64,000 nt of DNA from positions 620,001 through 684,000 of the forward strand of contig NZ_CP091975.1 of assembly GCF_029016285.1 (NCBI RefSeq), written 5' to 3'. Of this stretch, positions 40,857 to 42,583 are shown piece by piece. Made by a program: the position numbers and the translations under genes. This stretch comes from Vibrio sp. DW001. GTDB lineage: Bacteria > Pseudomonadota > Gammaproteobacteria > Enterobacterales > Vibrionaceae. Below the pieces are notes generated by a model that worked only from the letters and a program-made list of their open reading frames with translations, had not been told where the DNA came from and did not search any database. Every line of letters begins with the position of its first letter. The stretch's first letter is position 1.

Positions 40857-40889
40857 TAAAAGGCTTTAGTGAAAACTAAAGCCTTTTTT
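40857..40889 (+). terminator. Rho-independent terminator after satP
   Basis: Stem AAAGGCTTTAGT/ACTAAAGCCTTT with a GAAA loop and T6 tract. Confidence 0.95.
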
Positions 40890-40991: not shown

Positions 40992-41207
40992 TTATTTAAT
41001 GGAACTGGTGCAACCGTCTTCTGGTTCTGAAATCTGATAAAGCTTGTGTTCATCACAAACCGTCTCACAATTACACACCTGATCGACACCGACATTGTTT
41101 AGCCCACCACAGCTTCCCTGTATGGTTTTTTTATTAAAAATGACGCCAATGGCCATTAATAAAATAACGATCAGAAAAAAACCAAAGGTTATGAGCATCG
41201 TTGTCAT
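40992..41207 (-). CDS. NqrM-like (DUF539) small membrane metalloprotein
   Basis: 71 aa. One N-terminal membrane helix (about 4-24), then SCGGL and VCNCETVCD, giving Cys33, Cys45, Cys47 and Cys51 in the NqrM pattern. In Vibrio harveyi NqrM is needed for maturation of the Na+-NQR iron site and Cys33 is the critical Cys. That gene normally follows apbE by the nqr operon. Here the gene sits 8 bp after a NifX-like gene, so it is a paralogue or a relocated copy. It may hand over iron in another system. Confidence 0.85.
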   Translation of the reverse strand: MTTMLITFGFFLIVILLMAIGVIFNKKTIQGSCGGLNNVGVDQVCNCETVCDEHKLYQISEPEDGCTSSIK

Positions 41208-41215
41208 GTCGAATC

Positions 41216-41755
41216 CTACCTTTTATCTAGCGGAGATAGGGACGATATAGGATTCATCTGTCTGAACATCGCCTTTCCATGGCCAACACCACGGTTAACG
41301 GCACCATGATGACCAGCACCATGATGACCAGCACCATGATGGTCACTGCATCCGTTTGAATGTTCTGAGCAACCACATGAATGTCCAGAGCACCCACCTT
41401 TTTGTAGGTGTTTTTTTGAAGGACGACCTTGAGTTGATTCAGTTAGTTCGATCATCGAGCTACTTATCGCCGATGCCACCGGTGTTTGCTGTGCAACTTG
41501 AAACACACGAATGCCGGAACTGAGTAATTTTCCGAGCGCTCGTTCACCTATGTTGCGCACGATGACCGCATCGGTTTTCATTTTTTTAATGAGCGTGATG
41601 CTGTCTTTTTTGTCGCTACAAGATGAATTGCCACCTGCTGCGGGGTTGATTGCGTCGTGAATAAATGAATTGTCTGCATTTATGAAAGCGAACTGCTTGG
41701 CTTTCATAAAGTGGTTAGCGACGCATTCTCGGCTGTGTGGGATAGCATAAATCAT
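41216..41755 (-). CDS. NifX/NafY-like Fe-Mo cofactor-binding-family protein with Cys/His tail
   Basis: 179 aa. Residues 1-105 fit the dinitrogenase iron-molybdenum cofactor fold (MIYAIPHS start, DAVIVRNIGERALGKLLSSGIRVF). Residues about 118-160 form a tail rich in Cys, His and Gly (CSGHSCGCSEHSNGCSDHH, then GAGHH repeats) suited to metal binding. The start ATG overlaps the DUF134 stop (ATGA). No nitrogenase genes are in the window, so a role in iron or Fe-S handling is more likely than nitrogen fixation. Confidence 0.88.
   Translation of the reverse strand: MIYAIPHSRECVANHFMKAKQFAFINADNSFIHDAINPAAGGNSSCSDKKDSITLIKKMKTDAVIVRNIGERALGKLLSSGIRVFQVAQQTPVASAISSSMIELTESTQGRPSKKHLQKGGCSGHSCGCSEHSNGCSDHHGAGHHGAGHHGAVNRGVGHGKAMFRQMNPISSLSPLDKR
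41301..41345. repeat. 15-bp tandem repeat encoding the His-rich tail
   Basis: Unit GCACCATGATGACCA about three times in the NifX-like gene, encoding the GAGHH-type repeats on the minus strand. Repeat number may vary between strains. Confidence 0.8.
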
Positions 41756-42042
41756 TGTTCTGACTCCTTATTTTCTAGAACAAGTGCATTACCTTCTACT
41801 AGACAAGAAGCAACCTTAAATCGAGCACGATTTACAATATTGCCAAAAGTCTGCCTTGAAACTCCCATTTGATCTGCTGCTTCCTGTTGACTCAATTTTT
41901 CAAAGTCAGCGAGTCTTATCGCTTCGAATTCTTCAGCTAGTATCTCTACCTTCTTTAGTTTTCCGAGCGGTATCCCATTGGGTTTAAAGCAGCTGTGTGC
42001 AGGTCGCCCACAAATGCGACGGCATTTTTTGGGTCTGGCCAT
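41752..42042 (-). CDS. DUF134 (UPF0251) helix-turn-helix protein
   Basis: 96 aa. Basic, Cys-containing N-terminus (CRRICGRP) and an HTH at about 50-73 (LSQQEAADQMGVSRQTFGNI). The family is common next to NifX-like genes; its role is not established. It is first in a tight three-gene operon and lies beside two perfect palindromes, so it is the likely DNA-binding regulator of the operon and perhaps of the divergent thioesterase. The Cys residues could allow metal sensing. Confidence 0.88.
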   Translation of the reverse strand: MARPKKCRRICGRPAHSCFKPNGIPLGKLKKVEILAEEFEAIRLADFEKLSQQEAADQMGVSRQTFGNIVNRARFKVASCLVEGNALVLENKESEQ

Positions 42043-42081
42043 AATTTCTCCTAAAAGAGTTTCAAGTAAACTATACGTTAG

Positions 42082-42101
42082 TTATTGGCATATGCCAATA
42101 A
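42082..42101. promoter_or_regulatory. Perfect 20-bp palindrome, candidate DUF134 operator 1
   Basis: Half-site TTATTGGCAT followed by its exact complement. It shares the centre GCATATGC with the palindrome at 42114-42137; the centres are 34 bp apart. Confidence 0.8.
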
Positions 42102-42113
42102 AAAGGTTGGGTT

Positions 42114-42137
42114 AATTTATAGCATATGCTATAAATT
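42114..42137. promoter_or_regulatory. Perfect 24-bp palindrome, candidate DUF134 operator 2
   Basis: Half-site AATTTATAGCAT followed by its exact complement. It lies 36 bp before the divergent thioesterase start. Confidence 0.8.
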
Positions 42138-42172
42138 ATGCATGAAATCCGCTTTAATCACTAGGGTATAAA

Positions 42173-42583
42173 ATGAAAAATGTTAAGCCAAATAGCCACA
42201 ACAACTGTATTGCATGTGGTGAGTCGAACTTCAACTCCAACTCACTTCAATTGCAGTTTTCATCTGACTCCGAAAATAGCGTTATGACAAAGATAAAACT
42301 AGATGAATCTTACCAAGGGTATCCGAACGTGTTACATGGTGGAGTGATCAGCACCTTATTGGACGCGGCGATGACACATTGCCTGTTTGCTCGACATTTA
42401 GAAGCCATGACAGCCGAGTTGACCGTTAGGTTCATTAAACCGGTACCGATTAATCAAGAGCTAGTTGTTGTTGGAACTTGTGTTGCGGAACAAAGAGGAA
42501 TGTATAAATTGACCAGTTTTATTTCACTAAATGACAATATATTGGCTCGCGCCAAGGCCAAATTTCTTCTTATAAAAGCGTAA
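42173..42583 (+). CDS. PaaI-type hotdog thioesterase
   Basis: 136 aa. Hotdog-fold core with VLHGGVISTLLDAAMTH (catalytic Asp/Glu helix) and LTVRFIKPVP. The N-terminus carries CIACGESNFNSNSLQL, a CxxC as in related YbgC/PaaI proteins. It probably hydrolyses an acyl-CoA; substrate unknown. It is divergent from the DUF134 operon across the paired palindromes. Confidence 0.85.
   Translation: MKNVKPNSHNNCIACGESNFNSNSLQLQFSSDSENSVMTKIKLDESYQGYPNVLHGGVISTLLDAAMTHCLFARHLEAMTAELTVRFIKPVPINQELVVVGTCVAEQRGMYKLTSFISLNDNILARAKAKFLLIKA

Follow-up and report, generated by a model that had tools for sequence, protein, structure and literature searches.

Does the tight three-gene operon at positions 40992 to 42042 of the window (the whole 64,000-nucleotide stretch of DNA analyzed here) encode an undescribed iron or Fe-S module, as a first-pass annotation had proposed, and if so, what controls it and which enzyme does it serve? 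All three genes lie on the minus strand and exceed their Pfam cut-offs: a gene for a 96-aa DUF134 protein, a putative repressor with a sigma-region-4-like HTH (41752..42042; PF02001, 88.4 bits, cut-off 27), a gene for a 179-aa NifX-fold protein (41216..41755; PF02579, Nitro_FeMo-Co, 45.1 bits, cut-off 26.3) and a gene for a 71-aa paralogue of NqrM (40992..41207; PF04400, 64.9 bits, cut-off 22). The first two overlap by 4 bp (a gap of -4) and the last two are separated by +8 bp, confirming the open reading frames, families and spacing given in that annotation, as well as the dense Cys/His tail of the NifX-like protein, in which we counted 4 Cys and 10 His. The shared terminator that had been claimed is plausible, since a stem-loop (40858..40887) sits downstream of the operon, in the interval before an acetate transporter gene, and is a pattern match only. 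The claimed lack of nitrogenase and nqr genes holds for the examined 36-47 kb part of the window, where no nqr or nif gene was found, but a complete nqr operon is present elsewhere in the genome.

That nqr operon is informative about the third gene. The genome (5.46 Mb, two contigs) contains a second nqrM at C1:2946015, whose product is 56% identical to the window protein and whose gene adjoins nqrA-F and apbE in the order nqrABCDEF-apbE-nqrM (C1 about 2.94-2.95 Mb); nqrA-F exceed their NCBIfam cut-offs, while ApbE is the best match for its gene but falls under the cut-off. A full nqr operon carrying its own nqrM rules out the operon gene as the sole nqrM, and because it is not the only one, the caveat raised in the first-pass annotation, that it might be the sole functional nqrM, does not apply. 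The window protein resembles canonical NqrM (DUF539), the Na+-NQR maturation factor, in Pfam family, length, hydrophobic N-terminus (one membrane segment predicted by eye) and four Cys (C33, C45, C47 and C51), which are invariant in the NqrM alignment; both its profile score and this Cys set place it in PF04400. In contrast to canonical NqrM, it is encoded outside the nqr operon, falls in a separate clade, ends in a LYQIxEP tail and has its own candidate operator.

We classed 96 NqrM-like ORFs (duplicates retained) according to whether the fetched locus also contained nqr or apbE genes. LYQI was found in none of the 24 ORFs with such genes and in 68 of the 72 without nqr genes alongside, the other four having near variants. 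A tree of unique NqrM cores separated 21 canonical from 67 other sequences without exception (local support 0.927), and in the latter the basic tail of canonical NqrM is replaced by LYQI[S/Q]EP, which in the window protein is the subfamily-diagnostic LYQISEP motif (residues 56-62; 41022..41042, minus strand). By sequence, these proteins form a separate subfamily of the NqrM family, for which we coin the name NqrM2. The four Cys are retained in almost all NqrM-like ORFs; one NqrM2 copy (L188:4229-4435) lacks the first of them, a sign of decay. With NqrM2 as query, a protein search found 53 relatives, 49 with the motif, two with near variants and two canonical-looking, and several of the relatives carry the database name '(Na+)-NQR maturation NqrM'. 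At the class level, 56 of 369 genomes have NqrM-like matches, and the motif was absent from all 29 loci read outside the order (one locus per genome; 30 of the 56 were read, including our own genome).

Two papers (PMC6209661, PMC12174285) credit canonical NqrM with delivering iron or [2Fe-2S] to NqrD/E. Since the NqrM Cys set is retained, NqrM2 likely handles metal at the membrane as well, although its tail points to another partner or mode of control. It seems unlikely to us that NqrM2 is instead a redundant or condition-specific Na+-NQR maturation factor, with the NifX-like protein doing no more than tuning its expression. The Pfam family and Cys set of NqrM2 are compatible with such a role, the 18 of 18 two-NqrM genomes in our order sample hold two members of the family, nqr genes accompany the other copy in our own genome and in 18 of the 20 canonical loci fetched for comparison, where such a pair was fetched, and an NQR-type NqrM is present in every DUF134-positive genome of the order sample (35/35); nevertheless, none of 72 cases had NqrM2 next to nqr genes, and the clean two-clade split together with the different tail suggests another partner or another mode of control.

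The NifX-like protein matches the NifX/NafY/ORP group in both the PF02579 profile and the fold, its Foldseek matches being 1o13 (TM1816; 1.2e-6), the NafY core (3.0e-4), ORP (4.7e-4) and NifX (6.0e-4), with only weak sequence similarity to the solved structures. It differs from this group in its Cys/His-rich tail, its coupling to NqrM2 and the absence of a second PF02579 gene in the genome; a nitrogenase accessory role is disfavored, given that the operon gene is the sole PF02579 gene. The tail (approximately residues 101-179; 41219-41455, minus strand) is predicted to be disordered (pLDDT about 44-70). Its length and His content vary widely among species, and short DNA repeats seen by eye at 41300-41350 of the window encode its HHGAG repeats. 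Among 87 sequences, H15 is retained in 85% and C46 in 83%, which is suggestive only as a pointer to metal-cluster binding. The NifX-like domain also matches the ORP domain of MrpORP, the orange protein of sulfate reducers, weakly (26 bits, cut-off 450). According to titles cited in PMC6345978, ORP binds a Mo-Cu sulfide cluster. MrpORP systems would share with the NifX-like module a relation to Fe-S or metal clusters; the gene partners differ, and no Mrp ATPase lies beside the operon in the examined 36-47 kb. Fusions of DUF134 to a NifX-like domain occur in other bacteria (six among 80 DUF134 loci, two of these checked with Pfam), suggesting that the two domains communicate. At one locus (L069:6288-6941) the NifX-like gene is broken into two short ORFs, a sign of decay.

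DUF134 (UPF0251) is a widespread family whose function is not known. The gene is present in single copy in our genome, and the structural model of its product (pLDDT 89.6) has SigR region 4 (5fgm) as best PDB match (probability 1.00, E 0.021), with no Foldseek match at or below E 0.001. The fold is thus predicted to resemble sigma region 4, the -35-binding domain of sigma-70 factors, with which the protein also shares HTH similarity; unlike that domain, DUF134 is free-standing at 96 aa, has no region-2 match and, because its candidate site is palindromic, would act as a dimer. Cys11 and Cys18 are conserved in 83% and 78% of 100 sequences.

Is the combination of genes conserved? In a same-genus sample of 61 genomes, 37 have DUF134 and 24 do not, and we read the DUF134 neighborhoods of all 37. 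The NifX-like gene is present in 37/37 and NqrM2 is coupled to it in 35/37, the exceptions being G207 and G239, which have the NifX-like gene but no NqrM2 in the fetched loci. DUF134 is co-directional with the NifX-NqrM2 pair in only 10 genomes, convergent in 23 and unlinked in four. The survey of operon conservation therefore upholds the NifX-NqrM2 pairing, and with it the core of a conserved module, while the operon as drawn in the first-pass annotation, although present here, is not the general form and the arrangement of DUF134 varies. More broadly, among 80 loci found with a DUF134 protein, a NifX-like gene lies no more than about 310 bp away, on either strand, in 41 and an NqrM-like gene is present in 25 (counted by hand). 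In the order sample of 197 genomes, 35 have DUF134 above the cut-off; PF02579 was found in all 35 compared with 11 of the 162 others, and an NqrM-family gene in all 35 compared with 120 of the 162. Two NqrM copies were found in 18 genomes, all among the 35 (Fisher test, ignoring kinship), and the co-occurrence of DUF134 with the module may stem partly from shared ancestry.

Aliivibrio fischeri is among the surveyed species with the operon (locus L035). Several loci depart from the common arrangement. In two Aliivibrio loci (L032:5947-6482 and L033:5998-6482) NqrM2 directly follows DUF134 with no NifX-like gene between them; since NqrM2 is kept there without an adjoining NifX-like gene, an obligatory relay from NifX to NqrM2 is argued against, as it is by G207 and G239 and by G163 and G186, in which NqrM2 is unlinked. 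The motif-bearing NqrM2 copies of the latter two genomes (L123:5336-5698 and L143:5549-5767) lie apart from DUF134 and have no operator nearby. In G159, DUF134, the NifX-like gene and a divergent NqrM2/thioesterase pair occupy three separate places, with an operator at each, two of them imperfect. Finally, in a group of mostly Shewanella loci (L071-L075, L077-L079, L083, L086 and L115) DUF134 is followed by a Fur-family regulator and a CoA-disulfide-reductase/rhodanese gene (both families profile-checked for L073), with no adjoining NifX or NqrM2; most have the operator core before DUF134.

The candidate operator, one of the features that the earlier reading had not included (along with the NqrM2 signature, the divergent thioesterase neighbor and the second nqrM of the genome), lies in the 130-bp interval between DUF134 and the divergent thioesterase gene. 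This interval holds two perfect palindromes that share the core GCATATGC: operator 1, TTATTGGCATATGCCAATAA (42082..42101), and operator 2 (42113..42138), nearer the thioesterase gene. The operator 1 pattern had no match in 100 shuffles of the window, and the two strict sites in our own genome are both in this interval. Allowing up to two mismatches, the 20-bp palindrome TTATTRGCATATGCYAATAA was found in 35 of the 37 DUF134-positive and in none of the 24 DUF134-negative same-genus genomes (Fisher 5e-15 over the 61 genomes, ignoring kinship), whereas a reversed control pattern was found in one of the 61. The core, often embedded in a longer palindrome, precedes DUF134 or NifX in loci of Vibrio, Aliivibrio, Shewanella and Parendozoicomonas and in several loci of enterobacteria. 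A looser pattern matched 64 of the 197 order-sample genomes (27 of 35 DUF134-positive and 37 of 162 others) and the reversed control about two dozen; with 37 matching genomes lacking DUF134 above the cut-off, we dropped the order-level result as proof of specificity.

The position of the site suggests what it may control. In a core-based scan allowing up to five mismatches, the operator lies ahead of the transcript that includes NifX in 36 of 37 genomes, or in 32 of 33 when the figure is kept independent of the four unlinked loci, which were located via the operator; the exception is G198, whose site is imperfect and lacks part of the core. This arrangement extends to the 23 genomes with convergent and the four with unlinked DUF134. 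By comparison, DUF134 itself is preceded by a site in 9 of 37, indicating that the site follows the targets rather than the regulator gene, and since convergent loci have no site before DUF134 (or before the thioesterase gene), DUF134 autoregulation is not general. Operators away from DUF134 precede NifX-NqrM2 in G237, G247, G248 and G227, and the thioesterase gene in G247, G223 and G228. The thioesterase, a hotdog-fold (4HBT) protein with an N-terminal HxxCxxC (42173..42583, plus strand; PF03061, 37.9 bits) whose H9, C12 and C15 are present in 96-100% of 33 sequences, has a relative in 24 of the 37 DUF134-positive genomes, judged by the loci fetched (including G247, G223 and G228, where it was seen only at a separate, operator-located place). 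Because it is found in only these 24, with an operator before the gene in 5 of them, the thioesterase is a frequent neighbor and not a fixed member of the module.

The palindrome also coincides with predicted promoter elements. The half site TTGGCA resembles a -35 hexamer, and by consensus match the predicted operon promoter (42070..42098, minus strand) comprises TTGGCA within operator 1, a 17-nt spacer and the -10 element TATAGT, a match that is weak alone, since the 2-kb region contains three consensus sites compared with 5.0 expected by shuffling. Across 121 non-identical upstream regions (64 of DUF134, 40 of NifX and 17 of thioesterase genes), -10-like hexamers accumulate at 6 bp (36 matches) and 7 bp (22 matches) after the site, giving 58, compared with 1-11 at each other scoring offset; this phasing was not seen in the 17 thioesterase regions. 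Computed in this way, the palindrome and the -35 element of the predicted promoter overlap.

A few operator-like sites lie elsewhere. In our own genome, a site that departs from the degenerate consensus at one position (C1:1478711-1478730; L152:5212-5231) lies about 370 bp before a gene for an octaheme tetrathionate reductase-family cytochrome, which is followed by a cytochrome b561 gene; it also occurs in the close relative G216 and may be due to chance. Single cases precede an AhpC-type peroxiredoxin gene (L164:4127-4146 in G244, one mismatch) and a type III sulfide:quinone reductase-like gene (L160:4213-4232 in G207, two mismatches). Because the counts are near those of the control, we keep these sites as weak leads only and do not propose a wider regulon. 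They bear on the possibility, which we consider improbable, that the regulon responds to stress from sulfide, persulfide or thiometallates, with DUF134 (through Cys11/Cys18) or the ORP-like NifX protein sensing reactive sulfur or thiomolybdate and NqrM2 shielding or repairing a membrane Fe-S site damaged by that stress. The Shewanella loci with the operator core, in which the partners of DUF134 are a Fur-family regulator and a CoA-disulfide-reductase/rhodanese protein, are consistent with this explanation, as are the looser sites before the sulfide:quinone reductase-like and octaheme cytochrome genes and the match of the NifX-like model to ORP, described in titles cited in PMC6345978 as binding a Mo-Cu sulfide cluster. 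However, the extra sites are few (five non-module sites in 61 genomes compared with one for the control) and are not common to distant species, the sulfide:quinone reductase-like match is far under the model cut-off (198 compared with 525 bits), and Cys11 and Cys18 are conserved in only 83% and 78% of the sequences. That a factor other than DUF134 binds the palindrome, with DUF134 merely linked genetically to the regulon, is highly improbable: although a site precedes DUF134 itself in only nine same-genus genomes, none of the 24 DUF134-negative genomes has the site, the co-occurrence holds also in the four genomes where target and DUF134 are unlinked, and the HTH is predicted to be of the -35-binding type.

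Our best reading, which we draw from comparative genomics and hold with moderate confidence, is that DUF134 is the repressor of a dedicated NifX-NqrM2 circuit, one that would supply a membrane redox enzyme with metal or Fe-S. We infer that a DUF134 dimer is the palindrome binder, contacting TTGGCA and the opposed TGCCAA, both of them -35-like half sites; bound over the -35 element of the NifX-NqrM2 promoter, it would exclude RNA polymerase. The promoter of DUF134 itself would be covered as well where the genes are co-directional, and that of the thioesterase gene might be where the palindrome precedes it. Repression is more likely than activation, since the 17-18-nt spacer from the in-site TTGGCA or TTAGCA is already optimal, which makes occlusion the likelier outcome of binding. 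The NifX-fold protein probably carries a metal or Fe-S cofactor and reports its state to DUF134, such that repression would be lifted when the cofactor is scarce or damaged. NqrM2 would then assist with the insertion or repair of an iron or [2Fe-2S] site in such an enzyme, the most likely client being the NqrD/E or RnfA/E pair; any part played by the thioesterase is conjectural. A bolder version, which we put forward only tentatively, is that the sigma-region-4-like repressor senses the cofactor load of the NifX-fold protein and, when that protein is empty, deploys NqrM2, whose tail would serve for docking, so that the buried [2Fe-2S] site of RnfA/E or NqrD/E is rebuilt during stress, in an undescribed circuit of one regulator and essentially one target.

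The module is a conserved combination of known parts with a candidate regulator-operator pair, not a new kind of machine, and the idea of an undescribed conserved iron or Fe-S module survives, strengthened on sequence grounds. Among the matches listed in the open-licence literature, none describes the operon, the operator or the second version of NqrM. Current annotation may be mixing two proteins under the name '(Na+)-NQR maturation NqrM', because NqrM2 is a separate subfamily with its own signature. For DUF134, the analysis supplies a specific operator and a target transcript, both as candidates, and proposes a mode of action that experiments can probe. Little is known about how NQR acquires its membrane-buried [2Fe-2S] site, and we know of no NqrM-like factor for RNF; NqrM2 would be a concrete candidate for filling such buried [2Fe-2S] sites or for serving as the RNF factor.
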